A DNA stretch of 64,000 nucleotides, from the NCBI GenBank assembly GCA_963920705.1, contig CAWUCO010000268.1:2356001-2420000 (forward strand), given 5' to 3'. The stretch is from Odiellus spinosus. Lineage: Eukaryota; Arthropoda; Arachnida; Opiliones; Phalangiidae. This document shows positions 3,501 to 55,213 of the stretch, in pieces (within the stretch, counting starts at the first letter, position 1; each line of letters opens with the position of its first letter). A model generated the notes under the pieces. It searched no databases and was not told the origin of the DNA. It saw only the letters and a list, made by a program, of their open reading frames with translations. The position numbers and the translations under genes were made by a program.

Positions 3501-3655
3501 GCAATTAATGGACAGTCTAAATAATAAGAGTTTTCAAAAATCCGTTGAAAAACAAGAAAAATAGGGCCAATTCAAGAAACCATACAATATCAAAATAGTC
3601 AAATTTCAGATTTTAAAAATTCGCTTTTTGATATTAGATGTTTTTTGAATTGTCC
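600..3655 (+). repeat. 8-monomer higher-order repeat, copy 1 (3,056 bp)
   Basis: Distinctive monomers recur at exactly 3,056 bp: the TATATCTGTCAC plus GAAAATCAAG monomer at 793 and 3,849, the 3-bp-deleted TAAATAAGAG monomer near 1,228 and 4,284, and the TTGTATTTTTAAG variant near 3,411 and 6,467. Identity starts around 600, within arm 2, and is close to complete. Edges are set by eye to within a few tens of bp. Confidence 0.85.
610..625 (-). other. Intact core motif in arm 2 (example)
   Basis: TGTTTTTCAACGGATT is the exact reverse complement of the arm 1 core AATCCGTTGAAAAACA. In the preceding monomer (227-242) the same place reads TGTTTTTCAAGGGATT, which breaks the CCGTTG core. Both states recur through the array, so monomers can be scored as having two intact cores or one. 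Confidence 0.6.
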
Positions 3656-6600
3656 ATATTTTCCATGTTTTTCAACGGATTTTCCAAAACTCTTGATTTT
3701 CAGATAGACCAATATTTGCTCTTTCGAGTGGTCTTAATTTTGTCTAAATCGCTTAAAAATCAAAAGTTTTGTGTCCATTTGAATCCAATAATCTTGGATT
3801 TTTAAGCGTTTTTGCTTTATTTTAACCAATTTTATATCTGTCACAATTTTGCAATTTAGACAAAACCAAAGTCATTCGAAAGAGCAATTAATGGACAGTC
3901 TAAATAACAAGAGTTTTCAAAAATCCGTTGAAAATCAAGAAAAATATGGCCAATTCAAGAAACCATACAATATCAAAATAGTCAAATTTCAGATTTTAAA
4001 AATTCGCTTTTTGATAATAGATGTTTTTTGAATTGTCCATATTTTCCATGTTTTTCAAGGGATTTTCCAAAACTCATGTTTTTTAGATAGACCAATATTT
4101 GCTCTTTCGAGTGGTCTTAATTTTGTCTAAATCGCTTAAAAATCAAAAGTTTTGTGTTCATTTGAATCCAATAATCTTGGATTTTTAAGCGTTTTTGCTT
4201 AATTTTAACCAATTTTATATTTGTCACAATTTTGCAATTTAGACAAAACCAAAGTCATTCGAAAGAGCAATTAATGGACAGTCTAAATAAGAGTTTTCAA
4301 AAATCCGTTGAAAAACAAGAAAAATATGGCCAATTCAAGAAATCATAGAATATCAAAATAGTCAAATTTCAGATTTTCAAAATTCGCTTTTTGATATTAG
4401 ATGTTTTTGACTTGTCCATATTTTCCATGTTTTTCAAGGGATTTTCCAAAACTCATGTTTTTTTGATAGACCAATATTTGCTCTTTCGAGTGGTCTAATT
4501 TTGTCTAAATCGCTTAAAAATCAAAAGTTTTGTGTCCATTTGAATCCAATAATCTTGGATTTTTAAGCGTTTTTGCTTAATTTTAACCAATTTTATATTT
4601 GTCACAATTTTGCAATTTAGACAAAACCAAAGTCATTCGAAAGAGCAATTAATGGACAGTCTAAATAATAAGAGTTTTCAAAAATCCGTTGAAAAACAAG
4701 AAAAATATGGCCAATTCAAGAAACCATACAATATCAAAATAGTCAAATTTCAGATTTTAAAAATTCGCTTTTTGATATTAGATGTTTTTTGAATTGTCCA
4801 TATTTTCCATGTTTTTCAAGGGATTTTCAAAAACTCATGTTTTTTAGATAGACCAATATTTGCTCTTTCGAGTGGTCTTAATTTTGTCTAAATCGCTTAA
4901 AAATCAAAAGTTTTGTGTTCATTTGAATCCAATACTCTTGGATTTTTAAGCGTTTTTGCTTAATTTTAACCAATTTTATATTTGTCACAATTTTGCAATT
5001 TAGACAAAACCAAAGTCATTCGAAAGAGCAATTAATGGACAGTCTAAATAATAAGAGTTTTCAAAAATCCGTTGAAAAACAAGAAAAATATGGCCAATTC
5101 AAGAAATCATAGAATATCAAAATAGTCAAATTTCAGATTTTCAAAATTCGCTTTTTGATATTAGATGCTTTTTGAATTGTCCATATTTTCCATGTTTTTC
5201 AACGGATTTTCCAAAACTCTTGTTTTTTAGATAGACCAATTTTGCTCTTTCGAGTGGTCTAATTTTGTCTAAATCACTTAAAAATCAAAAGTTTTGTGTC
5301 CATTTGAATCCAATAATCTTGGATTTTTAAGCGTTTTTGCTTAATTTTAACCAATTTTATATTTGTCACAATTTTGCAATTTAGACAAAACCAAAGTCAT
5401 TCGAAAGAGCAATTAATGGTCAGTCTAAATAATAAGAGTTTTCAAAAATCCGTTGAAAAACAAGAAAAATATGGCCAATTCAAGAAATCATAGAATATCA
5501 AAATAGTCAAATTTCAGATTTTAAAAATTCGCTTTTTGATATTAGATGTTTTTTGAATTGTCCATATTTTCCATGTTTTTCAACGGATTTTCCAAAACTC
5601 TTGTTTTTTAGATAGACCAATATTTGCTCTTTCGAGTGGTCTTAATTTTGTCTAAATCGCTTAAAAATCAAAAGTTTTGTGTCCATTTGAATCCAATAAT
5701 CTTGGATTTTTAAGTGTTTTTGCTTTATTTTAACCAATTTTATATCTGTCACAATTTTGCAATTTAGACAAAACCAAAGTCATTCGAAAGAGCAATTAAT
5801 GGACAGTCTAAATAACAAGAGTTTTCAAAAATCCGTTGAAAAACAAGAAAAATATGGCCAATTCAAGAAACCATACAATATCAAAATAGTCAAATTTCAG
5901 ATTTTAAAAATTCGCTTTTTGACATTAGATGTTTTTTGAATTGGCTATATTTTCCATGTTTTTCAACGGATTTTCCAAAACTCTAGATTTTCAGATAGAC
6001 CAATATTTGCTCTTTCGAGTGGTCTTAATTTTGTCTAAATCGCTTAAAAATCAAAAGTTTTGTGTCCATTTGAATCCAATAATCTTGGATTTTTAAGCGT
6101 TTTTGCTTAATTTTAACCAATTTTATATTTGTCACAATTTTGCAATTTAGACAAAACCAAAGTCATTCGAAAGAGCAATTAATGGACAGTCTAAATAATA
6201 AGAGTTTTCAAAAATCCGTTGAAAAACAAGAAAAATATGGCCAATTCAAGAAATCATAGAATATCAAAATAGTCAAATTTCAGATTTTCAAAATTCGCTT
6301 TTTGATATTAGATGCTTTTTGAATTGTCCATATTTTCCATGTTTTTCAACGGATTTTCCAAAACTCTTGTTTTTTAGATAGACCAATTTTGCTCTTTCGA
6401 GTGGTCTTAATTTTGTCTAAATCGCTTAAAAATCAAAAGTTTTGTGTCCATTTGAATCCAATAATCTTGTATTTTTAAGCGTTTTTGCTTAATTTTAACC
6501 AATTTTATATTGGTCACAATTTTGCAATTTAGACAAAACCAAAGTCATTCGAAAGAGCAATTAATGGACAGTCTAAATAATAAGAGTTTTCAAAAATCCG

Positions 6601-12403: not shown

Positions 12404-12500
12404 AATTCGCTTTTTGATATTAGATGTTTTTTGAATTGTCCATATTTTCGATGTTTTTCAACGGATTTTTGTAAACTCTTATTATTTAGACTGTCCATTA
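12404..12500. other. Orientation switch + to - (left edge of 6.8-kb inverted block)
   Basis: A + monomer reads through its centre and into arm 2 (GAATTGTCCATATTTT). Within the shared TGTTTTTCAACGGATTTT (12,452-12,469) it continues as reverse-complemented arm 1 (CTCTTATTATTTAGACTG). Two private changes flank the switch: TTTCGATG for TTTCCATG, and TTTGTAAACTC for the usual TTTGAAAACTC. The result is arm 1, centre, reversed arm 1: a longer and better palindrome than a normal monomer, with its axis near 12,404. Confidence 0.85.
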
Positions 12501-12699
12501 ATTGCTCTTTCGAATGACTTTGGTTTTGTCTAAATTGCAAAATTGTGACAAATATAAAATTGGTTAAAATTAAGCAAAAACGCTTAAAAATCCAAGATTA
12601 TAGGATTCAAATGGACACAAAACTTTTGATTTTTAAGCGATTTAGACAAAATTAAGACCACTCGAAAGAGCAAATATTGGTCTATCTGAAAATCAAGAG

Positions 12700-14215
12700 T
12701 TTTGGAAAATCCGTTGAAAAACATGGAAAATATGGACAATTCAAAAAACATCTAATATCAAAAAGCGAATTTTTAAAATCTGAAATTTGACTATTTTGAC
12801 ATTGTATGATTTCTTGAATTGGCCATATTTTTCTTGTTTTTCAACGGATTTTTAAAAACTCTTGTTATTTAGACTGTCCATTAATTGCTCTGTCGAATAA
12901 CTTTGGTTTTGTCTAAATTGCAAAATTGTGACAAATATAAAATTGGTTAAAATTAAGCAAAAACGCTTAAAAATCCTAGATTATAGGATTCAAATGGACA
13001 CAAAACTTTTGATTTTTAAGCGATTTAGACAAAATTAAGACCACTCGAAAGAGCAAATATTGGTCTATCTGAAAATCAAGAGTTTTGGAAAATCCGTTGA
13101 AAAACATGGAAAATATGGACAATTCAAAAAACATCTAATATCAAAAAGCGAATTTTTAAAATCTGAAATTTGACTATTTTGATATTGTATGATTTCTTGA
13201 ATTGGCCATATTTTTCTTGTTTTTCAACGGATTTTTGAAAACTCTTATTTAGACTGTCCATTAATTGCTCTTTCGAATGACTTTGGTTTTGTCTAAATTG
13301 CAAAATTGTGACCAATATAAAATTGGTTAAAATTAAGCAAAAACGCTTAAAAATCCAAGATTATTGGATTCAAATGGACACAAAACTTTTGATTTTTAAG
13401 CGATTTAGACAAAATTAAGACCACTCGAAAGAGCAAATATTGGTCTATCTAAAAATCAAGAGTTTTGGAAAATCCGTTGAAAAACATGGAAAATATGGAC
13501 AATTCAAAAAACATCTAATATCAAAAAGCGAATTTTTAAAATCTGAAATTTGACTATTTTGACATTGTATGATTTCTTGAATTGGCCATATTTTTCTTGT
13601 TTTTCAACGGATTTTTAAAAACTCTTGTTATTTAGACTGTCCATTAATTGCTCTGTCGAATAACTTTGGTTTTGTCTAAATTGCAAAATTGTGACAAATA
13701 TAAAATTGGTTAAAATTAAGCAAAAACGCTTAAAAATCCTAGATTATAGGATTCAAATGGACACAAAACTTTTGATTTTTAAGCGATTTAGACAAAATTA
13801 AGACCACTCGAAAGAGCAAATATTGGTCTATCTGAAAATCAAGAGTTTTGGAAAATCCGTTGAAAAACATGGAAAATATGGACAATTCAAAAAACATCTA
13901 ATATCAAAAAGCGAATTTTTAAAATCTGAAATTTGACTATTTTGATATTGTATGATTTCTTGAATTGGCCATATTTTTCTTGTTTTTCAACGGATTTTTG
14001 AAAACTCTTATTTAGACTGTCCATTAATTGCTCTTTCGAATGACTTTGGTTTTGTCTAAATTGCAAAATTGTGACCAATATAAAATTGGTTAAAATTAAG
14101 CAAAAACGCTTAAAAATCCAAGATTATTGGATTCAAATGGACACAAAACTTTTGATTTTTAAGCGATTTAGACAAAATTAAGACCACTCGAAAGAGCAAA
14201 TATTGGTCTATCTAA
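12700..14215 (-). repeat. Dimeric higher-order repeat (2 x 763 bp) in inverted block
   Basis: Private variants recur 763 bp apart: GACATTGTATG near 12,798 and 13,561, GCTCTGTCGAATAACTTT near 12,889 and 13,652, and CCTAGATTATAGG near 12,974 and 13,737. The two monomers in each dimer are clearly distinguishable. Edges are approximate. Confidence 0.75.
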
Positions 14216-15164
14216 AAAACAAGAGTTTTGGAAAATCCGTTGAAAAACATGGAAAATATGGACAATTCAAAAAACATCTAATATCAAAAAGCGAATTTTT
14301 AAAATCTGAAATTTGACTATTTTGATATTGTATGATTTCTTGAATTGGCCATATTTTTCTTGTTTTTCAACGGGTTTTTGAAAACTCTTGTTATTTAGAC
14401 TGTCCATTAATTGCTCTTTCGAATGACTTTGGTTTTGTCTAAATTGCAAAATTGTGACAAATATAAAATTGGTTAAAATTAAGCAAAAACGCTTAAATAT
14501 CCAAGATTATTGGATTCAAATGGACACAAAACTTTTGATTTTTAAGCGATTTAGACAAAATTAAGACCACTCGAAAGAGCAAATATTGGTCTATCTAAAA
14601 AACAAGAGTTTTGGAAAATCCGTTGAAAAACATGGAAAATATGGACAATTCAAAAATCATCTAATATCAAAAAGCGAATTTTTAAAATCTGAAATTTGAC
14701 TATTTTGATATTCTATGATTTCTTGAATTGGCCATATTTTTCTTGTTTTTCAACGGATTTTTGAAAACTCTTATTTAGACTGTCCATTAATTGCTCTTTC
14801 GAATGACTTTGGTTTTGTCTAAATTGCAAAATTGTGACCAATATAAAATTGGTTAAAATTAAGCAAAAACGCTTAAAAATCCAAGATTATTGGATTCAAA
14901 TGGACACAAAACTTTTGATTTTTAAGCGATTTAGACAAAATTAAGACCACTCGAAAGAGCAAATATTGGTCTATCTAAAAAACAAGAGTTTTGGAAAATC
15001 CGTTGAAAAACATGGAAAATATGGACAATTCAAAAAACATCTAATATCAAAAAGCGAATTTTTAAAATCTGAAATTTGACTATTTTGATATTGTATGATT
15101 TCTTGAATTGGCCATATTTTTCTTGTTTTTCAACGGGTTTTTGAAAACTCTTGTTATTTAGACT

Positions 15165-15190
15165 GTCCATTAATTGCTAAATTGCAAAAT
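15165..15190 (-). repeat. Monomer with 25-bp deletion, copy 1
   Basis: TTAATTGCT joins directly to AAATTGCAAAATTG at 15,178/15,179. The 25 bp holding the TTCGAA site and most of the outer arm 1 block are missing. A CT is shared at both ends of the lost segment, consistent with slippage or microhomology-mediated loss. Confidence 0.85.
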
Positions 15191-17428
15191 TGTGACAAAT
15201 ATAAAATTGGTTAAAATAAAGCAAAAACACTTAAAAATCCAAGATTATAGGATTCAAATGGACACAAAACTTTTTATTTTTAAGCGATTTAGACAAAATT
15301 AAGACCACTCGAAAGAGCAAATATTGGTCTATCTGAAAATCAAGAGTTTTGGAAAATCCGTTGAAAAACATGGAAAATATGGACAATTCAAAAAACATCT
15401 AATATCAAAAAGCGAATTTTTAAAATCTGAAATTTGACTATTTTGATATTGTATGATTTCTTGAATTGGCCATATTTTTCTTGTTTTTCAACGGGTTTTT
15501 GAAAACTCTTGTTATTTAGACTGTCCATTAATTGCTCTTTCGAATGACTTTGGTTTTGTCTAAATTGCAAAATTGTGACAAATATAAAATTGGTTAAAAT
15601 TAAGCAAAAACGCTTAAATATCCAAGATTATTGGATTCAAATGGACACAAAACTTTTGATTTTTAAGCGATTTAGACAAAATTAAGACCACTCGAAAGAG
15701 CAAATATTGGTCTATCTAAAAAACAAGAGTTTTGGAAAATCCGTTGAAAAACATGGAAAATATGGACAATTCAAAAATCATCTAATATCAAAAAGCGAAT
15801 TTTTAAAATCTGAAATTTGACTATTTTGATATTCTATGATTTCTTGAATTGGCCATATTTTTCTTGTTTTTCAACGGATTTTTGAAAACTCTTATTTAGA
15901 CTGTCCATTAATTGCTCTTTCGAATGACTTTGGTTTTGTCTAAATTGCAAAATTGTGACCAATATAAAATTGGTTAAAATTAAGCAAAAACGCTTAAAAA
16001 TCCAAGATTATTGGATTCAAATGGACACAAAACTTTTGATTTTTAAGCGATTTAGACAAAATTAAGACCACTCGAAAGAGCAAATATTGGTCTATCTAAA
16101 AAACAAGAGTTTTGGAAAATCCGTTGAAAAACATGGAAAATATGGACAATTCAAAAAACATCTAATATCAAAAAGCGAATTTTTAAAATCTGAAATTTGA
16201 CTATTTTGATATTGTATGATTTCTTGAATTGGCCATATTTTTCTTGTTTTTCAACGGATTTTTGAAAACTCTTATTTAGACTGTCCATTAATTGCTCTTT
16301 CGAATGACTTTGGTTTTGTCTAAATTGCAAAATTGTGACCAATATAAAATTGGTTAAAATTAAGCAAAAACGCTTAAAAATCCAAGATTATTGGATTCAA
16401 ATGGACACAAAACTTTTGATTTTTAAGCGATTTAGACAAAATTAAGACCACTCGAAAGAGCAAATATTGGTCTATCTAAAAAACAAGAGTTTTGGAAAAT
16501 CCGTTGAAAAACATGGAAAATATGGACAATTCAAAAAACATCTAATATCAAAAAGCGAATTTTTAAAATCTGAAATTTGACTATTTTGATATTGTATGAT
16601 TTCTTGAATTGGCCATATTTTTCTTGTTTTTCAACGGGTTTTTGAAAACTCTTGTTATTTAGACTGTCCATTAATTGCTCTTTCGAATGACTTTGGTTTT
16701 GTCTAAATTGCAAAATTGTGACAAATATAAAATTGGTTAAAATTAAGCAAAAACGCTTAAATATCCAAGATTATTGGATTCAAATGGACACAAAACTTTT
16801 GATTTTTAAGCGATTTAGACAAAATTAAGACCACTCGAAAGAGCAAATATTGGTCTATCTAAAAAACAAGAGTTTTGGAAAATCCGTTGAAAAACATGGA
16901 AAATATGGACAATTCAAAAATCATCTAATATCAAAAAGCGAATTTTTAAAATCTGAAATTTGACTATTTTGATATTCTATGATTTCTTGAATTGGCCATA
17001 TTTTTCTTGTTTTTCAACGGATTTTTGAAAACTCTTATTTAGACTGTCCATTAATTGCTCTTTCGAATGACTTTGGTTTTGTCTAAATTGCAAAATTGTG
17101 ACCAATATAAAATTGGTTAAAATTAAGCAAAAACGCTTAAAAATCCAAGATTATTGGATTCAAATGGACACAAAACTTTTGATTTTTAAGCGATTTAGAC
17201 AAAATTAAGACCACTCGAAAGAGCAAATATTGGTCTATCTAAAAAACAAGAGTTTTGGAAAATCCGTTGAAAAACATGGAAAATATGGACAATTCAAAAA
17301 ACATCTAATATCAAAAAGCGAATTTTTAAAATCTGAAATTTGACTATTTTGATATTGTATGATTTCTTGAATTGGCCATATTTTTCTTGTTTTTCAACGG
17401 GTTTTTGAAAACTCTTGTTATTTAGACT

Positions 17429-17454
17429 GTCCATTAATTGCTAAATTGCAAAAT
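17429..17454 (-). repeat. Monomer with 25-bp deletion, copy 2
   Basis: Same junction as at 15,178, here at 17,442/17,443, exactly 2,264 bp away. The identical breakpoint shows copying by unequal exchange and not an independent deletion. Confidence 0.85.
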
Positions 17455-18549
17455 TGTGACAAATATAAAATTGGTTAAAATAAAGCAAAAACACTTAAAA
17501 ATCCAAGATTATAGGATTCAAATGGACACAAAACTTTTTATTTTTAAGCGATTTAGACAAAATTAAGACCACTCGAAAGAGCAAATATTGGTCTATCTGA
17601 AAATCAAGAGTTTTGGAAAATCCGTTGAAAAACATGGAAAATATGGACAATTCAAAAAACATCTAATATCAAAAAGCGAATTTTTAAAATCTGAAATTTG
17701 ACTATTTTGATATTGTATGATTTCTTGAATTGGCCATATTTTTCTTGTTTTTCAACGGGTTTTTGAAAACTCTTGTTATTTAGACTGTCCATTAATTGCT
17801 CTTTCGAATGACTTTGGTTTTGTCTAAATTGCAAAATTGTGACAAATATAAAATTGGTTAAAATTAAGCAAAAACGCTTAAATATCCAAGATTATTGGAT
17901 TCAAATGGACACAAAACTTTTGATTTTTAAGCGATTTAGACAAAATTAAGACCACTCGAAAGAGCAAATATTGGTCTATCTAAAAAACAAGAGTTTTGGA
18001 AAATCCGTTGAAAAACATGGAAAATATGGACAATTCAAAAATCATCTAATATCAAAAAGCGAATTTTTAAAATCTGAAATTTGACTATTTTGATATTCTA
18101 TGATTTCTTGAATTGGCCATATTTTTCTTGTTTTTCAACGGATTTTTGAAAACTCTTATTTAGACTGTCCATTAATTGCTCTTTCGAATGACTTTGGTTT
18201 TGTCTAAATTGCAAAATTGTGACCAATATAAAATTGGTTAAAATTAAGCAAAAACGCTTAAAAATCCAAGATTATTGGATTCAAATGGACACAAAACTTT
18301 TGATTTTTAAGCGATTTAGACAAAATTAAGACCACTCGAAAGAGCAAATATTGGTCTATCTAAAAAACAAGAGTTTTGGAAAATCCGTTGAAAAACATGG
18401 AAAATATGGACAATTCAAAAAACATCTAATATCAAAAAGCGAATTTTTAAAATCTGAAATTTGACTATTTTGATATTGTATGATTTCTTGAATTGGCCAT
18501 ATTTTTCTTGTTTTTCAACGGGTTTTTGAAAACTCTTGTTATTTAGACT

Positions 18550-18575
18550 GTCCATTAATTGCTAAATTGCAAAAT
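18550..18575 (-). repeat. Monomer with 25-bp deletion, copy 3
   Basis: Same junction at 18,563/18,564, 1,121 bp from copy 2. The shorter interval reveals a 3-monomer step inside the 6-monomer repeat. Confidence 0.85.
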
Positions 18576-19149
18576 TGTGACAAATATAAAATTGGTTAAA
18601 ATAAAGCAAAAACACTTAAAAATCCAAGATTATAGGATTCAAATGGACACAAAACTTTTTATTTTTAAGCGATTTAGACAAAATTAAGACCACTCGAAAG
18701 AGCAAATATTGGTCTATCTGAAAATCAAGAGTTTTGGAAAATCCGTTGAAAAACATGGAAAATATGGACAATTCAAAAAACATCTAATATCAAAAAGCGA
18801 ATTTTTAAAATCTGAAATTTGACTATTTTGATATTGTATGATTTCTTGAATTGGCCATATTTTTCTTGTTTTTCAACGGATTTTTGAAAACTCTTATTTA
18901 GACTGTCCATTAATTGCTCTTTCGAATGACTTTGGTTTTGTCTAAATTGCAAAATTGTGACCAATATAAAATTGGTTAAAATTAAGCAAAAACGCTTAAA
19001 AATCCAAGATTATTGGATTCAAATGGACACAAAACTTTTGATTTTTAAGCGATTTAGACAAAATTAAGACCACTCGAAAGAGCAAATAATGGTCTATCTA
19101 AAAAACAAGAGTTTTGGAAAATCCGTTGAAAAACATGGAAAATATGGAC

Positions 19150-19439
19150 AATTCAAAAAACATCTAATATCAAAAAGCGAATTTTTAAAATCTGAAATTT
19201 GACTATTTTGATATTGTATGATTTCTTGAATTGGCCATATTTTTCTTGTTTTTCAACGGATTTTTGAAAACTCTTGTTATTTAGACTGTCCATTAATGGA
19301 CAGTCTAAATAATAAGAGTTTTCAAAAATCCGTTGAAAAACAAGAAAAATTTGGCCAATTCAAGAAACCATACAATATCAAAATAGTCATATTTCAGATT
19401 TTAAAAATTCGCTTTTTGATATTAGATGTTTTTTGAATT
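19150..19439. other. Spacer-free palindromic junction, - to + (right edge of inverted block)
   Basis: The - and + arrays meet with no intervening base. The axis lies between 19,294 and 19,295, inside CCATTAATGG. TTAGACTGTCCATT at 19,281-19,294 mirrors AATGGACAGTCTAA at 19,295-19,308 perfectly. Over about 145 bp on each side I count about four mismatches, the first being GTTATT against AATAAT. Normal monomers read GCAATTAATGGAC, so the U-turn lies on the monomer's own ATTAAT palindrome (19,292-19,297). Confidence 0.92.
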
Positions 19440-41800: not shown

Positions 41801-42410
41801 TTTTGCTTAATTTTAACCAATTTTATATTTGTCACAATTTTGCAATTTAGACAAAACCAAAGTCATTCGAAAGAGCAATTAATGGACAGTCTAAATAATA
41901 AGAGTTTTCAAAAATCCGTTGAAAAACAAGAAAAATATGGCCAATTCAAGAAATCATAGCATATCAAAATAGTCAAATTTCAGATTTTAAAAATTCGCTT
42001 TTTGATATTAGATGTTTTTTGAATTGTAAATATTTTCCATGTTTTTCAAGGGATTTTCCAAAACTCATGTTTTTTAGATAGACCAATATTTGCTCTTTCG
42101 AGTGGTCTTAATTTTGTCTAAATCGCTTAAAAATCAAAAGTTTTGTGTCCATTTGAATCCAATAATCTTGGATTTTTAAGTGTTTTTGCTTAATTTTAAC
42201 CAATTTTATAATTGTCACAATTTTGCAATTTAGACAAAACCAAAGTCATTCGAAAGAGCAATTAATGGACAGTCTAAATAATAAGAGTTTTCAAAAATCC
42301 GTTGAAAAACAAGAAAAGTATGGCCAATTCAAGAAACCATACAATATCAAAATAGTCAAATTTCAGATTTTAAAAATTCGCTTTTTGATTTTAGATGTTT
42401 TTTGAATTGG

Positions 42411-42822
42411 CCATATTTTTCTTGTTTTTCAACGGATTTTTGAAAACTCTTATTATTTAGACTGTCCATTAATTGCTCTTTCGAATGACTTTCGTTTTGT
42501 CTAAATTGCAAAATTGTGACAAATATAAAATTGGTTAAAATTAAGCAAAAACGCTTAAAAATTCAAGATTATTGGATTCAAATGGACACAAAACTTTTGA
42601 TTTTTAAGCGATTTAGACAAAATTAGACCACTCGAAAGAGCAAATATTGGTCTATCTAAAAAACAAGAGTTTTGGAAAATCCGTTGAAAAACATGGAAAA
42701 TATAGCCAATTCAAAAAACATCTAATATCAAAAAGCGAATTTTTAAAATCTGAAATTTGACTATTTTGATATTGTATGGTTTCTTGAATTGGCCATATTT
42801 TTCTTGTTTTTCAACGGATTTT
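42411..42822 (-). repeat. Single inverted monomer, copy 1
   Basis: After arm 1 and the centre, the sequence switches at GAATTGG (42,404-42,410) into reversed arm 1. It passes through a reversed spacer, reversed arm 2 and the centre, and returns to + arm 2 inside TGTTTTTCAACGGATTTT (about 42,805-42,822). The inverted piece is about 405 bp, one monomer plus some 20 bp of shared arm sequence. The right flank differs from the other four copies (TTAATATTGTCTAAATCGCTAAAAATC), so this may be the oldest or a recombined copy. Confidence 0.88.
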
Positions 42823-43739
42823 CCAAAACTCTTGATTTTCAGATAGACCAATATTTGCTCTTTCGAGTGGTCTTAATATTGTCTAAATCGCTAAAAATCA
42901 AAAGTTTTGTGTCCATTTTAATCCAATAATCTTGGATTTTTAAGTGTTTTTGCTTTATTTTAACCAATTTTATATTTGTCACAATTTTGCAATTTAGACA
43001 AAACCAAAGTCATTCGAAAGAGCAATTAATGGACAGTCTAAATAACAAGAGTTTTCAAAAATCCGTTGAAAAACAAGAAAAATATGGCCAATTCAAGAAA
43101 TCATACAATATCAAAATAGTCAAATTTCAGATTTTAAAAATTCGCTTTTTGATATTAGATGTTTTTTGAATTGTCCATATTTTCCATGTTTTTCAACGGA
43201 TTTTCCAAAACTCTTGTTTTTTAGATAGACCAATATTTGCTCTTTCGAGTGGTCTTAATTTTGTATAAATCGCTTAAAAATCAAAAGTTTTGTGTCCATT
43301 TGAATCCAATAATCTTGGATTTTTAAGTGTTTTTGCTTTATTTTAACCAATTTTATATTTGTCACAATTTTGCAATTTAGACAAAACCAAAGTCATTCGA
43401 AAGAGCAATTAATGGACAGTCTAAATAATAAGAGTTTTCAAAAATCCGTTGAAAAACAAGAAAAATATGGCCAATTCAAGAAATCATAGAATATCAAAAT
43501 AGTCAAATTTCAGATTTTAAAAATTCGCTTTTTGATATTAGATGTTTTTTGAATTGTCCATATTTTCCATGTTTTTCAAGGGATTTTCCAAAACTCATGT
43601 TTTTTAGATAGACCAATATTTGCTCTTTCGAGTGGTCTAATTTTGTCTAAATCGCTTAAAAATCAAAAGTTTTGTGTCCATTTGAATCCAATAATCTTGG
43701 ATTTTTAAGCGTTTTTGCTTAATTTTAACCAATTTTATA

Positions 43740-45330
43740 TTGGTCACAATTTTGCAATTTAGACAAAACCAAAGTCATTCGAAAGAGCAATTAATGGACA
43801 GTCTAAATAACAAGAGTTTTCAAAAATCCGTTGAAAAACAAGAAAAATATGGCCAATTCAAGAAACCATACAATATCAAAATAGTCAAATTTCAGATTTT
43901 AAAAATTCGCTTTTTGATATTAGATATTTTTTGAATTGGCTATATTTTCCATGTTTTTCAACGGATTTTCCAACACTCTTGTTTTTTAGATAGACCAATA
44001 TTTGCTCTTTCGAGTGGTCTTAATTTTGTCTAAATCGCTTAAAAATCAAAAGTTTTGTGTCCATTTGAATCCAATAATCTTGGATTTTTAAGCGTTTTTG
44101 CTTTATTTTAACCAATTTTATATTGGTCACAATTTTGCAATTTAGACAAAACCAAAGTCATTCGAAAGAGCAATTATTGGACAGTCTAAATAATAAGAGT
44201 TTTCAAAAATCCGTTGAAAAACAAGAAAAATATGGCCAATTCAAGAAATCATAGAATATCAAAATAGTCAAATTTCAGATATTCAAAATTCCCTTTTTGA
44301 TATTAGATGTTTTTTGAATTGTTTTTTGAATTCCATGTTTTTCAAGGGATTTTCCAAAACTCATGTTTTTTAGATAGACCAATATTTGCTCTTTCGAGTG
44401 GTATAATTTTGTCTAAATCGCTTAAAAATCCAAAGTTTTGTGTCCATTTGAATCCAATAATCTTGGATTTTTTAGTGTTTTTGCTTTATTTTAACCAATT
44501 TTATATTTGTCACAATTTTGCAATTTAGACAAAACCAAAGTCATTCGAAAGAGCAATTAATGGACAGTCTAAATAATAAGAGTTTTCAAAAATCCGTTGA
44601 AAAACAAGAAAAATATGGCCAATTCAAGAAACCATACAATATCAAAATAGTCAAATTTCAGATTTTAAAAATTCGCTTTTTGATATTAGATGTTTTTTGA
44701 ATTGGCTATATTTTCCATGTTTTTCAACGGATTTTCCAAAACTCTTGTTTTTTAGATAGACCAATATTTGCTCTTTCGAGTGGTCTTAATTTTGTCCAAA
44801 TCGCTTAAAAATCCAAAGTTTTGTGTCCATTTGAATCCAATAATCTTGGATTTTTTAGTGTTTTTGCTTTATTTTAACCAATTTTATATTTGTCACAATT
44901 TTGCAATTTAGACAAAACCAAAGACATTCGAAAGAGCAATTAATGGACAGTCTAAATAATAAGAGTTTTCAAAAATCCGTTGAAAAACAAGAAAAATATG
45001 GACAATTCAAGAAATCATAGCATATCAAAATAGTCAAATTTCAGATTTTAAAAATTCGCTTTTTGATATTAGATGCTTTTTGAATTGTCCATATTTTCCA
45101 TGTTTTTCAACGGATTTTCCAAAACTCATGTTTTTTAGATAGACCAATATTTGCTCTTTTGAGTGGTCTAATTTTGTCTAAATCGCTTAAAAATCAAAAG
45201 TTTTGTGTCCATTTGAATCAAATAATCTTGGATTTTTAAGCGTTTTTGCTTAATTATAACCAATTTTATATTGGTCACAATTTTGCAATTTAGACAAAAC
45301 CAAAGTCATTCGAAAGAGCAATTAATGGAC
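43740..45330 (+). repeat. Segment duplicated 9,943 bp to the right
   Basis: The monomers starting near 43,740, 44,307 (EcoRI type), 44,518 (with GTCCAAATCG downstream) and 44,900 (AAAGACATTCG) recur in the same order near 53,683, 54,250, 54,461 and 54,845, always 9,943 bp away (26 monomers). The match ends near 45,320, where AATAATAAGAG with CAGAAATCC replaces AATAACAAGAG. Confidence 0.75.
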
Positions 45331-45470
45331 AGTCTAAATAATAAGAGTTTTCAGAAATCCGTTGAAAAACAAGAAAAGTATGGCCAATTCAAGAAACCAT
45401 ACAATATCAAAATAGTCAAATTTCAGATTTTAAAAATTCGCTTTTTGATTTTAGATGTTTTTTGAATTGG

Positions 45471-45882
45471 CCATATTTTTCTTGTTTTTCAACGGATTTT
45501 TGAAAACTCTTATTATTTAGACTGTCCATTAATTGCTCTTTCGAATGACTTTCGTTTTGTCTAAATTGCAAAATTGTGACAAATATAAAATTGGTTAAAA
45601 TTAAGCAAAAACGCTTAAAAATTCAAGATTATTGGATTCAAATGGACACAAAACTTTTGATTTTTAAGCGATTTAGACAAAATTAGACCACTCGAAAGAG
45701 CAAATATTAGTCTATCTAAAAAACAAGAGTTTTGGAAAATCCGTTGAAAAACATGGAAAATATAGCCAATTCAAAAAACATCTAATATCAAAAAGCGAAT
45801 TTTTAAAATCTGAAATTTGACTATTTTGATATTGTATGGTTTCTTGAATTGGCCATATTTTTCTTGTTTTTCAACGGATTTT
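45471..45882 (-). repeat. Single inverted monomer, copy 2
   Basis: Same two junctions as copy 1, exactly 3,060 bp to the right (eight monomers). A private change is AATATTAGTCTATC near 45,705 where the others have AATATTGGTCTATC. Confidence 0.88.
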
Positions 45883-46417
45883 CCAAAACTCTTGATTTTC
45901 AGATAGACCAATATTTGCTCTTTCGAGTGGTCTTAATTTTGTCTAAATCGCTTAAAAATCAAAAGTTTTGTGTCCATTTGAATCCAATAATCTTGGATTT
46001 TTAAGCGTTTTTGCTTTATTTTAACCAATTTTATATTTGTCACAATTTTGCAATTTAGACAAAACCAAAGTCATTCGAAAGAGCAATTAATGGACAGTCT
46101 AAATAATAAGAGTTTTCAAAAATCCGTTGAAAAACAAGAAAAATATGGCCAATTCAAGAAATCATAGAATATCAAAATAGTCAAATTTCAGATTTTCAAA
46201 ATTCGCTTTTTGATATTAGATGTTTTTTGAATTGTCCATATTTTCCATGTTTTTCAAGGGATTTTCCAAAACTCATGTTTTTTAGATAGACCAATATTTG
46301 CTCTTTCGAGTGGTCTAATTTTGTCTAAATCGCTTAAAAATCAAAAGTTTTGTGTCCATTTGAATCCAATAATCTTGGATTTTTAAGCGTTTTTGCTTAA
46401 TTTTAACCAATTTTATA

Positions 46418-49094
46418 TTGGTCACAATTTTGCAATTTAGACAAAACCAAAGTCATTCGAAAGAGCAATTAATGGAGAGTCTAAATAACAAGAGTTTTCA
46501 AAAATCCGTTGAAAAACAAGAAAAATATGGCCAATTCAAGAAACCATACAATATCAAAATAGTCAAATTTCAGATTTTAAAAATTCGCTTTTTGATATTA
46601 GATATTTTTTGAATTGGCTATATTTTCCATGTTTTTCAACGGATTTTCCAACACTCTTGTTTTTTAGATAGACCAATATTTGCTCTTTCGAGTGGTCTTA
46701 ATTTTGTCTAAATCGCTTAAAAATCAAAAGTTTTGTGTCCATTTGAATCCAATAATCTTGGATTTTTAAGCGTTTTTGCTTTATTTTAACCAATTTTATA
46801 TTGGTCACAATTTTGCAATTTAGACAAAACCAAAGTCATTCGAAAGAGCAATTATTGGACAGTCTAAATAATAAGAGTTTTCAAAAATCCGTTGAAAAAC
46901 AAGAAAAATATGGCCAATTCAAGAAATCATAGAATATCAAAATAGTCAAATTTCAGATATTCAAAATTCCCTTTTTGATATTAGATGTTTTTTGAATTGT
47001 TTTTTGAATTCCATGTTTTTCAAGGGATTTTCCAAAACTCATGTTTTTTAGATAGACCAATATTTGCTCTTTCGAGTGGTATAATTTTGTCTAAATCGCT
47101 TAAAAATCCAAAGTTTTGTGTCCATTTGAATCCAATAATCTTGGATTTTTTAGTGTTTTTGCTTTATTTTAACCAATTTTATATTTGTCACAATTTTGCA
47201 ATTTAGACAAAACCAAAGTCATTCGAAAGAGCAATTAATGGACAGTCTAAATAATAAGAGTTTTCAAAAATCCGTTGAAAAACAAGAAAAATATGGACAA
47301 TTCAAGAAATCATAGCATATCAAAATAGTCAAATTTCAGATTTTAAAAATTCGCTTTTTGATATTAGATGTTTTTTGAATTGGCTATATTTTCCATGTTT
47401 TCAACGGATTTTCCAAAACTCTTGTTTTTTAGATAGACCAATATTTGCTCTTTCGAGTGGTGTTAATTTTGTCTAAATCGCTTAAAAATCAAAAGTTTTG
47501 TGTCCATTTGAATCCAATAATCTTGGATTTTTAAGTGTTTTTGCTTTATTTTAACCAATTTTATATTTGTCACAATTTTGCAATTTAGACAAAACCAAAG
47601 TCATTCGAAAGAGCAATTAATGGACAGTCTAAATAATAAGAGTTTTCAAAAATCCGTTGAAAAACAAGAAAAATATGGCCAATTCAAGAAATCATAGCAT
47701 ATCAAAATAGTCAAATTTCAGATTTTAAAAATTCGCTTTTTGATATTAGATGTTTTTTGAATTGTCCATATTTTCCATGTTTTTCAAGGGATTTTCCAAA
47801 ACTCATGTTTTTTAGATAGACCAATATTTGCTCTTTCGAGTGGTCTAATTTTGTCTAAATCGCTTAAAAATCAAAAGTTTTGTGTCCATTTGAATCCAAT
47901 AATCTTGGATTTTTAAGTGTTTTTGCTTAATTTTAACCAATTTTATAATTGTCACAATTTTGCAATTTAGACAAAACCAAAGTCATTCGAAAGAGCAATT
48001 AATGGACAGTCTAAATAATAAGAGTTTTCAGAAATCCGTTGAAAAACAAGAAAAGTATGGCCAATTCAAGAAACCATACAATATCAAAATAGTCAAATTT
48101 CAGATTTTAAAAATTCGCTTTTTGATTTTAGATGTTTTTTGAATTGGCCATATTTTTCTTGTTTTTCAACGGATTTTTGAAAACTCTTATTATTTAGACT
48201 GTCCATTAATTGCTCTTTCGAATGACTTTCGTTTTGTCTAAATTGCAAAATTGTGACAAATATAAAATTGGTTAAAATTAAGCAAAAACGCTTAAAAATT
48301 CAAGATTATTGGATTCAAATGGACACAAAACTTTTGATTTTTAAGCGATTTAGACAAAATTAGACCACTCGAAAGAGCAAATATTGGTCTATCTAAAAAA
48401 CAAGAGTTTTGGAAAATCCGTTGAAAAACATGGAAAATATAGCCAATTCAAAAAACATCTAATATCAAAAAGCGAATTTTTAAAATCTGAAATTTGACTA
48501 TTTTGATATTGTATGGTTTCTTGAATTGGCCATATTTTTCTTGTTTTTCAACGGATTTTCCAAAACTCTTGATTTTCAGATAGACCAATATTTGCTCTTT
48601 CGAGTGGTCTTAATTTTGTCTAAATCGCTTAAAAATCAAAAGTTTTGTGTCCATTTGAATCCAATAATCTTGGATTTTTAAGCGTTTTTGCTTTATTTTA
48701 ACCAATTTTATATTTGTCACAATTTTGCAATTTAGACAAAACCAAAGTCATTCGAAAGAGCAATTAATGGACAGTCTAAATAATAAGAGTTTTCAAAAAT
48801 CCGTTGAAAAACAAGAAAAATATGGCCAATTCAAGAAATCATAGAATATCAAAATAGTCAAATTTCAGATTTTCAAAATTCGCTTTTTGATATTAGATGT
48901 TTTTTGAATTGTCCATATTTTCCATGTTTTTCAAGGGATTTTCCAAAACTCATGTTTTTTAGATAGACCAATATTTGCTCTTTCGAGTGGTCTAATTTTG
49001 TCTAAATCGCTTAAAAATCAAAAGTTTTGTGTCCATTTGAATCCAATAATCTTGGATTTTTAAGCGTTTTTGCTTAATTTTAACCAATTTTATA
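46418..49094 (+). repeat. 7-monomer higher-order repeat with inverted monomer, copy A (2,677 bp)
   Basis: The unit starts with a monomer ending TTAGATATTTTTTG and CCAACACTCTTG, followed by the EcoRI monomer, TATGGACAATTC plus GGTGTTAATT, CATAGCATATC, the AGAAAAGTATGG monomer, the inverted monomer, and a CATAGAATATC monomer. It holds six + monomers and one - monomer. A private change is AATGGAGAGTC near 46,475. Confidence 0.85.
48148..48559 (-). repeat. Single inverted monomer, copy 3
   Basis: Same junctions, 2,677 bp (seven monomers) from copy 2. It lies inside the 7-monomer repeat 46,418-49,094. Confidence 0.88.
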
Positions 49095-50824
49095 TTGGTC
49101 ACAATTTTGCAATTTAGACAAAACCAAAGTCATTCGAAAGAGCAATTAATGGACAGTCTAAATAACAAGAGTTTTCAAAAATCCGTTGAAAAACAAGAAA
49201 AATATGGCCAATTCAAGAAACCATACAATATCAAAATAGTCAAATTTCAGATTTTAAAAATTCGCTTTTTGATATTAGATATTTTTTGAATTGGCTATAT
49301 TTTCCATGTTTTTCAACGGATTTTCCAACACTCTTGTTTTTTAGATAGACCAATATTTGCTCTTTCGAGTGGTCTTAATTTTGTCTAAATCGCTTAAAAA
49401 TCAAAAGTTTTGTGTCCATTTGAATCCAATAATCTTGGATTTTTAAGCGTTTTTGCTTTATTTTAACCAATTTTATATTGGTCACAATTTTGCAATTTAG
49501 ACAAAACCAAAGTCATTCGAAAGAGCAATTATTGGACAGTCTAAATAATAAGAGTTTTCAAAAATCCGTTGAAAAACAAGAAAAATATGGCCAATTCAAG
49601 AAATCATAGAATATCAAAATAGTCAAATTTCAGATATTCAAAATTCCCTTTTTGATATTAGATGTTTTTTGAATTGTTTTTTGAATTCCATGTTTTTCAA
49701 GGGATTTTCCAAAACTCATGTTTTTTAGATAGACCAATATTTGCTCTTTCGAGTGGTATAATTTTGTCTAAATCGCTTAAAAATCCAAAGTTTTGTGTCC
49801 ATTTGAATCCAATAATCTTGGATTTTTTAGTGTTTTTGCTTTATTTTAACCAATTTTATATTTGTCACAATTTTGCAATTTAGACAAAACCAAAGTCATT
49901 CGAAAGAGCAATTAATGGACAGTCTAAATAATAAGAGTTTTCAAAAATCCGTTGAAAAACAAGAAAAATATGGACAATTCAAGAAATCATAGCATATCAA
50001 AATAGTCAAATTTCAGATTTTAAAAATTCGCTTTTTGATATTAGATGTTTTTTGAATTGGCTATATTTTCCATGTTTTCAACGGATTTTCCAAAACTCTT
50101 GTTTTTTAGATAGACCAATATTTGCTCTTTCGAGTGGTGTTAATTTTGTCTAAATCGCTTAAAAATCAAAAGTTTTGTGTCCATTTGAATCCAATAATCT
50201 TGGATTTTTAAGTGTTTTTGCTTTATTTTAACCAATTTTATATTTGTCACAATTTTGCAATTTAGACAAAACCAAAGTCATTCGAAAGAGCAATTAATGG
50301 ACAGTCTAAATAATAAGAGTTTTCAAAAATCCGTTGAAAAACAAGAAAAATATGGCCAATTCAAGAAATCATAGCATATCAAAATAGTCAAATTTCAGAT
50401 TTTAAAAATTCGCTTTTTGATATTAGATGTTTTTTGAATTGTCCATATTTTCCATGTTTTTCAAGGGATTTTCCAAAACTCATGTTTTTTAGATAGACCA
50501 ATATTTGCTCTTTCGAGTGGTCTAATTTTGTCTAAATCGCTTAAAAATCAAAAGTTTTGTGTCCATTTGAATCCAATAATCTTGGATTTTTAAGTGTTTT
50601 TGCTTAATTTTAACCAATTTTATAATTGTCACAATTTTGCAATTTAGACAAAACCAAAGTCATTCGAAAGAGCAATTAATGGACAGTCTAAATAATAAGA
50701 GTTTTCAGAAATCCGTTGAAAAACAAGAAAAGTATGGCCAATTCAAGAAACCATACAATATCAAAATAGTCAAATTTCAGATTTTAAAAATTCGCTTTTT
50801 GATTTTAGATGTTTTTTGAATTGG

Positions 50825-51236
50825 CCATATTTTTCTTGTTTTTCAACGGATTTTTGAAAACTCTTATTATTTAGACTGTCCATTAATTGCTCTTTCGAAT
50901 GACTTTCGTTTTGTCTAAATTGCAAAATTGTGACAAATATAAAATTGGTTAAAATTAAGCAAAAACGCTTAAAAATTCAAGATTATTGGATTCAAATGGA
51001 CACAAAACTTTTGAGTTTTAAGCGATTTAGACAAAATTAGACCACTCGAAAGAGCAAATATTGGTCTATCTAAAAAACAAGAGTTTTGGAAAATCCGTTG
51101 AAAAACATGGAAAATATAGCCAATTCAAAAAACATCTAATATCAAAAAGCGAATTTTTAAAATCTGAAATTTGACTATTTTGATATTGTATGGTTTCTTG
51201 AATTGGCCATATTTTTCTTGTTTTTCAACGGATTTT
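50825..51236 (-). repeat. Single inverted monomer, copy 4
   Basis: Same junctions, 2,677 bp from copy 3. A private change is TTTTGAGTTTTAAGCG near 51,010 where the other copies have TTTTGATTTTTAAGCG, which breaks the spacer hairpin. Confidence 0.88.
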
Positions 51237-51584
51237 CCAAAACTCTTGATTTTCAGATAGACCAATATTTGCTCTTTCGAGTGGTCTTAATTTTGTCTAA
51301 ATCGCTTAAAAATCAAAAGTTTTGTGTCCATTTGAATCCAATAATCTTGGATTTTTAAGCGTTTTTGCTTTATTTTAACCAATTTTATATTTGTCACAAT
51401 TTTGCAATTTAGACAAAACCAAAGTCATTCGAAAGAGCAATTAATGGACAGTCTAAATAATAAGAGTTTTCAAAAATCCGTTGAAAAACAAGAAAAGTAT
51501 GGCCAATTCAAGAAACCATACAATATCAAAATAGTCAAATTTCAGATTTTAAAAATTCGCTTTTTGATTTTAGATGTTTTTTGA

Positions 51585-51615
51585 ATTGGCCATATTTTTC
51601 TTGTTTTTCAAGGGA
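51585..51615 (+). other. Arm-to-arm hybrid junction without an inversion
   Basis: The monomer starting near 51,404 has AGAAAAGTATGG and GATTTTAGATG, the left flank of the inverted monomer, and enters GGCCATATTTTTCTTG, which is reversed arm 1. It then continues directly as + arm 2 (TTTTTCAAGGGATTTTCC). Arm 2 thus carries about 25 bp of reversed arm 1 while no inverted monomer follows. This looks like deletion of an inverted monomer by recombination, or arm-to-arm gene conversion. Confidence 0.75.
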
Positions 51616-52735
51616 TTTTCCAAAACTCATGTTTTTTAGATAGACCAATATTTGCTCTTTCGAGTGGTCTAATTTTGTCTAAATCGCTTAAAAATCAAAA
51701 GTTTTGTGTCCATTTGAATCCAATAATCTTGGATTTTTAAGCGTTTTTGCTTAATTTTAACCAATTTTATATTGGTCACAATTTTGCAATTTAGACAAAA
51801 CCAAAGTCATTCGAAAGAGCAATTAATGGACAGTCTAAATAATAAGAGTTTTCAAAAATCCGTTGAAAAACAAGAAAAATATGGACAATTCAAGAAATCA
51901 TAGCATATCAAAATAGTCAAATTTCAGATTTTAAAAATTCGCTTTTTGATATTAGATGTTTTTTGAATTGGCTATATTTTCCATGTTTTCAACGGATTTT
52001 CCAAAACTCTTGTTTTTTAGATAGACCAATATTTGCTCTTTCGAGTGGTGTTAATTTTGTCTAAATCGCTTAAAAATCAAAAGTTTTGTGTCCATTTGAA
52101 TCCAATAATCTTGGATTTTTAAGTGTTTTTGCTTTATTTTAACCAATTTTATATTTGTCACAATTTTGCAATTTAGACAAAACCAAAGTCATTCGAAAGA
52201 GCAATTAATGGACAGTCTAAATAATAAGAGTTTTCAAAAATCCGTTGAAAAACAAGAAAAATATGGCCAATTCAAGAAATCATAGCATATCAAAATAGTC
52301 AAATTTCAGATTTTAAAAATTCGCTTTTTGATATTAGATGTTTTTTGAATTGTCCATATTTTCCATGTTTTTCAAGGGATTTTCCAAAACTCATGTTTTT
52401 TAGATAGACCAATATTTGCTCTTTCGAGTGGTCTAATTTTGTCTAAATCGCTTAAAAATCAAAAGTTTTGTGTCCATTTGAATCCAATAATCTTGGATTT
52501 TTAAGTGTTTTTGCTTAATTTTAACCAATTTTATAATTGTCACAATTTTGCAATTTAGACAAAACCAAAGTCATTCGAAAGAGCAATTAATGGACAGTCT
52601 AAATAATAAGAGTTTTCAGAAATCCGTTGAAAAACAAGAAAAGTATGGCCAATTCAAGAAACCATACAATATCAAAATAGTCAAATTTCAGATTTTAAAA
52701 ATTCGCTTTTTGATTTTAGATGTTTTTTGAATTGG

Positions 52736-53147
52736 CCATATTTTTCTTGTTTTTCAACGGATTTTTGAAAACTCTTATTATTTAGACTGTCCATTAATTG
52801 CTCTTTCGAATGACTTTCGTTTTGTCTAAATTGCAAAATTGTGACAAATATAAAATTGGTTAAAATTAAGCAAAAACGCTTAAAAATTCAAGATTATTGG
52901 ATTCAAATGGACACAAAACTTTTGATTTTTAAGCGATTTAGACAAAATTAGACCACTCGAAAGAGCAAATATTGGTCTATCTAAAAAACAAGAGTTTTGG
53001 AAAATCCGTTGAAAAACATGGAAAATATAGCCAATTCAAAAAACATCTAATATCAAAAAGCGAATTTTTAAAATCTGAAATTTGACTATTTTGATATTGT
53101 ATGGTTTCTTGAATTGGCCATATTTTTCTTGTTTTTCAACGGATTTT
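52736..53147 (-). repeat. Single inverted monomer, copy 5
   Basis: Same junctions, 1,911 bp (five monomers) from copy 4. The shorter step results from loss of two monomers from the 7-monomer unit. Confidence 0.88.
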
Positions 53148-55213
53148 CCAAAACTCTTGATTTTCAGATAGACCAATATTTGCTCTTTCGAGTGGTCTTA
53201 ATTTTGTCTAAATCGCTTAAAAATCAAAAGTTTTGTGTCCATTTGAATCCAATAATCTTGGATTTTTAAGCGTTTTTGCTTTATTTTAACCAATTTTATA
53301 TTTGTCACAATTTTGCAATTTAGACAAAACCAAAGTCATTCGAAAGAGCAATTAATGGACAGTCTAAATAATAAGAGTTTTCAAAAATCCGTTGAAAAAC
53401 AAGAAAAATATGGCCAATTCAAGAAATCATAGAATATCAAAATAGTCAAATTTCAGATTTTCAAAATTCGCTTTTTGATATTAGATGTTTTTTGAATTGT
53501 CCATATTTTCCATGTTTTTCAAGGGATTTTCCAAAACTCATGTTTTTTAGATAGACCAATATTTGCTCTTTCGAGTGGTCTAATTTTGTCTAAATCGCTT
53601 AAAAATCAAAAGTTTTGTGTCCATTTGAATCCAATAATCTTGGATTTTTAAGCGTTTTTGCTTAATTTTAACCAATTTTATATTGGTCACAATTTTGCAA
53701 TTTAGACAAAACCAAAGTCATTCGAAAGAGCAATTAATGGACAGTCTAAATAACAAGAGTTTTCAAAAATCCGTTGAAAAACAAGAAAAATATGGCCAAT
53801 TCAAGAAACCATACAATATCAAAATAGTCAAATTTCAGATTTTAAAAATTCGCTTTTTGATATTAGATATTTTTTGAATTGGCTATATTTTCCATGTTTT
53901 TCAACGGATTTTCCAACACTCTTGTTTTTTAGATAGACCAATATTTGCTCTTTCGAGTGGTCTTAATTTTGTCTAAATCGCTTAAAAATCAAAAGTTTTG
54001 TGTCCATTTGAATCCAATAATCTTGGATTTTTAAGCGTTTTTGCTTTATTTTAACCAATTTTATATTGGTCACAATTTTGCAATTTAGACAAAACCAAAG
54101 TCATTCGAAAGAGCAATTATTGGACAGTCTAAATAATAAGAGTTTTCAAAAATCCGTTGAAAAACAAGAAAAATATGGCCAATTCAAGAAATCATAGAAT
54201 ATCAAAATAGTCAAATTTCAGATATTCAAAATTCCCTTTTTGATATTAGATGTTTTTTGAATTGTTTTTTGAATTCCATGTTTTTCAAGGGATTTTCCAA
54301 AACTCATGTTTTTTAGATAGACCAATATTTGCTCTTTCGAGTGGTATAATTTTGTCTAAATCGCTTAAAAATCCAAAGTTTTGTGTCCATTTGAATCCAA
54401 TAATCTTGGATTTTTTAGTGTTTTTGCTTTATTTTAACCAATTTTATATTTGTCACAATTTTGCAATTTAGACAAAACCAAAGTCATTCGAAAGAGCAAT
54501 TAATGGACAGTCTAAATAATAAGAGTTTTCAAAAATCCGTTGAAAAACAAGAAAAATATGGCCAATTCAAGAAACCATACAATATCAAAATAGTCAAATT
54601 TCAGATTTTAAAAATTCGCTTTTTGATATTAGATGTTTTTTGAATTGGCTATATTTTCCATGTTTTTCAACGGATTTTCCAAAACTCTTGTTTTTTAGAT
54701 AGACCAATATTTGCTCTTTCGAGTGGTCTTAATTTTGTCCAAATCGCTTAAAAATCCAAAGTTTTGTGTCCATTTGAATCCAATAATCTTGGATTTTTTA
54801 GTGTTTTTGCTTTATTTTAACCAATTTTATATTTGTCACAATTTTGCAATTTAGACAAAACCAAAGACATTCGAAAGAGCAATTAATGGACAGTCTAAAT
54901 AATAAGAGTTTTCAAAAATCCGTTGAAAAACAAGAAAAATATGGACAATTCAAGAAATCATAGCATATCAAAATAGTCAAATTTCAGATTTTAAAAATTC
55001 GCTTTTTGATATTAGATGCTTTTTGAATTGTCCATATTTTCCATGTTTTTCAACGGATTTTCCAAAACTCATGTTTTTTAGATAGACCAATATTTGCTCT
55101 TTTGAGTGGTCTAATTTTGTCTAAATCGCTTAAAAATCAAAAGTTTTGTGTCCATTTGAATCAAATAATCTTGGATTTTTAAGCGTTTTTGCTTAATTAT
55201 AACCAATTTTATA

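Follow-up and report, generated by a model that had tools for sequence, protein, structure and literature searches.

The window, by which we mean the whole 64-kb stretch analysed here (C261:2356001-2420000), consists of a 383-bp satellite with an AT content of 73%. A 383-bp consensus was built from 132 + strand monomers, and 138 full + monomers share a mean pairwise identity of ~96.6% (self-pairs included). The monomer itself is an imperfect palindrome (79%), with 222 of 281 columns identical when coordinates 7-285 are aligned to their own reverse complement. This alignment defines two arms, L and R, whose partner positions sum to ~292, whilst the other ~100 bp of the monomer form a spacer.

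Monomer coordinates 7-146: arm L (palindrome alignment)
Monomer coordinates 147-285: arm R (palindrome alignment)

Strand labels, assigned by Viterbi annotation against the consensus with strand jumps allowed, revealed 12 strand switches across the window, 10 of which bound five inverted pieces. A separate inverted block has an arm-homologous left junction (+201>-90, giving strand and monomer coordinate on either side of the switch) and a right junction that is a fold-back at ATTAAT (-40>+46).

12452-19297, - strand: separate inverted block of ~18 monomers, 6.8 kb (Viterbi annotation)

All five inverted pieces carry the same left junction (+182>-109) and the same right junction (-76>+217), and their starts at 42404, 45464, 48141, 50818 and 52729 are spaced by 3060, 2677, 2677 and 1911 bp, or 8, 7, 7 and 5 monomers of 382-383 bp. 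The identical junctions and the spacings recorded in the first-pass annotation were thereby reproduced; its description of each piece as a single inverted monomer stands in so far as there are five single pieces, but at 416 bp each exceeds one monomer. Together with its + flanks, each piece forms a cassette.

42222..42985, + strand: cassette copy 1, made of + coordinates 1-182, inverted piece 42404-42819 (- strand) and + coordinates 217-383
45282..46046, + strand: cassette copy 2, inverted piece 45464-45879
47959..48723, + strand: cassette copy 3, inverted piece 48141-48556
50636..51400, + strand: cassette copy 4, inverted piece 50818-51233
52547..53311, + strand: cassette copy 5, inverted piece 52729-53144

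The junction coordinates pair on the dyad (182+109 and 76+217, both ~292), so that inverted repeats lie at the breakpoints, as in a crossover inversion. A second emission model placed the junctions at 188/103 and 73/220, the exact junction base being undefined because the arms match fully or almost fully there. On its left side each cassette forms a 417-bp inverted repeat (95.7-96.6% identical, 73-bp loop) and on its right side one of ~277 bp (95.3-97.5% identical, 140-bp loop); long inverted repeats of this type are expected to be unstable. The cassettes differ pairwise at 0-6 of 765 columns, which against a mean monomer identity of ~96.6% excludes chance. Copies 2-5 differ at 0-2 columns, with copies 3 and 5 identical over 765 bp, and copy 1 shows 5-6 differences from the others; the five columns separating copy 1 from copies 3 and 5 all lie outside the inverted piece. 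The inverted pieces differ among themselves at 0-2 of 416 positions.

When monomers were assigned to classes by sequence clustering, the order along the array read cassette-9-5-15-29-20-30, cassette-5-15-29-31-21 (twice), cassette-32-31-21, and cassette-5-15-29-20-30 and onward. The repeated order corresponds to two adjacent units of mixed strand.

45282..47958, + strand: 7-monomer mixed-strand unit 1 (cassette plus five + monomers of classes 5-15-29-31-21)
47959..50635, + strand: 7-monomer mixed-strand unit 2
51401..51782, + strand: class-32 monomer with a sixth left junction (at 51572) and without an inverted monomer

The two 7-monomer units match at 2675 of 2677 positions, far above both the between-monomer identity and that of four control pairs of adjacent 7-monomer blocks (95.4-98.2%), and the last two monomers of the 5-monomer unit match those of the 7-monomer unit at 764 of 764 positions. 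Unit length is variable (8, 7, 7 and 5 monomers) and the array spans just 11 kb, rather than a long array of constant unit length. Within the window, the substitutions A97G and A169T occur together at six places, every one a left junction, and nowhere else. The sixth place is the monomer at 51401-51782, which carries these left marks followed by a class-5 right part (C212G, T229A, T270-, T375G). C20G was considered as a mark private to the cassette, and within the window it is confined to the five inverted pieces; its 153 copies genome-wide ruled this out, leaving it as a weak mark, and A97G and A169T together with the junction were retained as the strong marks. Local amplification of one mixed-strand cassette together with the rest of its tandem higher-order unit, as first proposed, is therefore well supported by the near-identity of the units and by the marks at all six left junctions. 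The case for one origin of all five copies rests on the linked marks and identical neighbours, not on the identity of the junctions.

Genome-wide counts were made on the assembled sequence (443 Mb, 286 contigs). The left junction, represented by a 57-mer, has 2,572 exact copies (1,306 and 1,266 per strand), a figure that may include arms returning to R sequence further along, and the reversed-pattern control for this 57-mer gave no copies genome-wide. At C6:271601-275000, where the strand alternates about every monomer, the left junctions are real switches. The L-middle>R-right switch of the right tract (34-mer) has 1,364 copies, an R arm with an L-type middle (RLR; 57-mer) has 102 exact copies, and the ordinary R arm (34-mer) has 44,297. 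The R-middle>L-right pattern gave 7,196 matches, some of which may be strand switches, so the two switch directions cannot be balanced from these counts. L-left>R-middle gave 1,070 matches; 11 of the first 12 places sit 22 bp ahead of an R-middle>L-right match in the same arm, and these 11 paired places are L arms whose middle is R-like, not switches. One exact pattern had no matches in either viral_contigs or genome_contigs. Left and right junctions are thus widespread in the genome's satellite, and what the window shows is an arrangement common elsewhere that has been multiplied locally.

Mixed-strand units were found on several other contigs and elsewhere on C261, contrary to the initial impression that the arrangement was peculiar to this locus. 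Six tandem 765-bp units alternate in strand at C215:215542-220129 (neighbours 97.1-99.7% identical), C229 holds five 1148-bp mixed-strand units (99.0-100%), C132 holds two of 2680 bp (2679/2680), and four cassettes with identical 404-bp pieces lie at C6:3.28-3.30 Mb. The inverted pieces at other loci differ from those of the window at 6-16 bases (in-register comparisons) and have the junction tracts in common. Since these junctions flank different bodies, their identity is no proof of a single origin, and the refuting observation proposed at the outset, junctions that differ between copies, has low power. Two cassettes at C261:3998627 and 3999774, 1.6 Mb away and in a 3-monomer unit, carry the A97G, A169T, junctions and C20G of the window and are 98.3-98.4% identical to its cassettes over 765 columns. 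One more marked left junction occurs on C206, in a cassette that extends beyond the sequence examined.

The polarity of the switches was scored over 270,800 bp, comprising the window plus 22 other loci. Eight switches adjoining non-satellite DNA were excluded, which left 214; of the added loci, 18 had been picked for the right junction and two (L050 and L051) for the left. Switches from + to - fell in the left tract 94 times, in the right tract twice and at other dyad positions 11 times, and those from - to + fell in the left tract 0 times, in the right tract 97 times, at other dyad positions six times and at non-dyad positions four times. Hence 191 of the 214 were + to - in the left tract or - to + in the right, most loci being pre-selected. 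In unselected DNA (the window and its flanks L040 and L041) the corresponding counts were 8, 1 and 0, and 0, 8, 1 and 1. A Fisher value for this polarity overstates it, since amplified copies are not independent. The runs of identical bases measure 8 bp in the left tract (R>L', + to -) and 18 bp in the neighbouring right tract (L'>R, - to +).

Free exchange between arms is expected to use both tracts in both directions. The fixed polarity points either to descent from a small number of founder junctions or to a pre-existing L-type middle in R arms. Under the latter explanation, an RLR arm acted as an adaptor: with ~39 bp of perfect identity to an inverted L arm, exchange anywhere within it would give the same two apparent junctions, and the switches may then be recurrent. 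Such an origin would account for the L-type middle found at both kinds of junction, and RLR arms do exist, both among the 102 exact 57-mers and in the window as the monomer at 51401. They are nevertheless much less frequent than the left junction (102 and 2,572 copies, respectively), they make up none of 597 scored arms in 23 loci (L029-L051) and one of 185 in the window, and they may equally be the scars of lost inverted monomers, leaving recurrent exchange through such arms a tentative and rather unlikely explanation.

The first-pass annotation had attributed the cassette to one inversion produced by exchange between opposed arms and then amplified, and arm homology at the junctions was confirmed. 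For a simple inversion of x..y in an ordered array, however, the ends are +(x-1)>-y and -x>+(y+1), and those observed would require x to be 183 and 76 at once. When simple inversions of 60 to ~1150 bp were fitted to 47577-49105 on a 6-bp grid, with the best refined, the lowest edit cost was 51, compared with 27 for a model with two junctions and 137 for no inversion. In the two-junction model 34 bp give way to ~417 inverted bp; the array thereby lengthens by one monomer and register is kept. One crossover between opposed arms that reciprocally inverted about one monomer, followed by amplification, would fit the arm-homologous junctions and the near-identical copies, yet the two ends do not match as products of one exchange and only later conversion at one end could rescue it, so that this origin is improbable.

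Artefacts of assembly or reads (fold-back reads and mis-joins) deserve consideration in mixed-strand tandem arrays, which are difficult to assemble, but are very improbable here: the junctions recur on many contigs with differing bodies and unit lengths, and at the fold-back at 19297 the arms are just 92.5-96.6% alike over 200-6800 bp, unlike a read with a missed adapter. Five independent exchanges at a hot spot, though in keeping with the presence of these junctions around different bodies at other loci, can be set aside as extremely improbable given the common flank marks and near-identical neighbours of the copies in the window.

We consider it probable that the cassette, whose local amplification is shown above, had a two-ended origin and belongs to a satellite through which a few ancestral junctions have spread. 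When an R arm exchanges with an inverted L arm, the strand is flipped and register stays intact. One route to the cassette would start from a broken end, or a stalled fork, within an R arm: slightly more than one monomer would be copied from an array of opposite orientation before the copying returned through the next L arm; an inversion followed by a deletion would be an equivalent alternative. Unequal crossing-over would subsequently have amplified the cassette into units of 8, 7, 7 and 5 monomers, and ordinary concerted evolution may have spread the small ancestral set of junctions through the satellite, a process for which we claim no cellular function. A bolder possibility, which we regard as doubtful, is that the satellite inverts itself: one short arm-to-arm conversion tract would have created both preferred switch sites of fixed polarity, from which much of the satellite would have been remodelled into varied mixed-strand higher-order repeats, one of them being amplified here and losing its inverted monomer at 51401.

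The block at 12-19 kb was examined as donor of the inverted body and rejected, its - monomers reaching at most 97.6% identity to the inverted piece compared with 98.8% for the best local + monomers. The body is also nearer to these local + monomers than to the sister cassettes at 3.998 Mb (97.6-97.8%), so that the body may have been converted or have arisen locally on its own.

Ordinary satellite higher-order repeats, such as those of alpha satellite, are multi-monomer units with near-identical copies amid diverged monomers. The present units resemble them in having near-identical copies (99.9%) amid more diverged monomers, but differ in that one monomer lies on the other strand. The closest precedent is found in the macro-dyad satellites of Tribolium. 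For Tribolium madens, one report (PMC13081366) describes TmSat1 and TmSat2 arrays in which subarrays several kb long are inverted and the inversion sites, reported in thousands of copies, are highly conserved; it gives the TmSat2 monomer long dyads, and states that macro-dyad arrays had been documented in Tribolium only. It also cites a 1061-bp satellite of Tribolium brevicornis with inversely oriented ~470-bp subunits (Mravinac et al. 2005, cited in PMC13081366). The satellite described here shares with T. madens arrays that change strand, conserved inversion sites and a dyad within the monomer, and it likewise shows opposed multi-kb subarrays (the block at 12452-19297, with alternating or mixed arrays on other contigs) and few types of inversion site (the 191 of 214 switches above, mostly from pre-selected loci). 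The T. madens arrays differ in their several-kb inverted subarrays and degenerate subunits at the inversion site, whereas the present satellite also has single flipped monomers inside higher-order repeats, and its junctions fall where the two arms of the monomer correspond by homology. The T. brevicornis unit is likewise a mixed-strand repeat in tandem, comparable to the alternating 765-bp units on C215, but is a fixed complex monomer, whereas here many unit lengths exist alongside one-strand arrays. The Tribolium work excepted, none of the titles and abstract openings surveyed on mixed-orientation satellite units described the arrangement, an observation that carries no claim of its absence from print. 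What the present case adds is single-monomer flips inside higher-order repeats, and a pair of junctions that are polar and lie at homologous positions in the arms.

The strand orientation of monomers in a satellite unit is commonly taken as fixed; here it acts as an inherited, amplified variant. Identical breakpoints in palindromic repeats should not be read alone as proof of a single origin. The two defined junctions can be counted in reads, which makes it testable whether array inversions recur or descend from few events, the same question that is raised by the conserved inversion sites of the Tribolium satellites.

Unusual structures containing the 383-bp satellite, whose monomer is an imperfect palindrome, were located both within the window and at sampled loci elsewhere in the genome assembly (G000):

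Window 12452-19297: inverted block of 6.8 kb that closes on the right with a short, perfect fold-back at ATTAAT (-40>+46)
L029-L032 (G000:C47:1086001-1134000): monomers with a flip confined to the palindrome's central 98 bp
L049 (G000:C3:23306101-23310500): dispersed fold-back-like element within a 29-Mb contig

The right-end switch of the block is one of four non-dyad switches among the 214 scored over the window and 22 further loci (270,800 bp), and the arms of its fold-back are 92.5-96.6% alike. Three minus-strand monomers of the block (window 15176, 17440 and 18561) carry an identical 25-bp deletion. At L029-L032, the centrally flipped monomers recur every one to several monomers.

A long strand-alternating array is possible in the first 1.06 Mb of contig C6, because a 3.4-kb sample from this region alternates strand about every monomer; among the matches listed there, left junctions (+182>-109) all lie on the same strand (100/100).

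The L049 element combines non-satellite ends with satellite monomers, and its arms (1-832 versus 3464-4293) are 98.2% alike. It is reminiscent of Tetris of Drosophila virilis, described as a fold-back transposon from which a satellite arose (PMC4079207). Among the listed places of an ordinary R-arm 34-mer, C5:7089657 matches the spacing of the L049 element, and a second layout is common to C1:33020931 and C5:18269154.

At ten labelled places in the window (40497-61541), one class of monomer is distinguished by a tandem duplication of 12 bp (TGTTTTTTGAAT); it occurs both beside the 765-bp cassettes that hold a single inverted piece and without an adjoining cassette.
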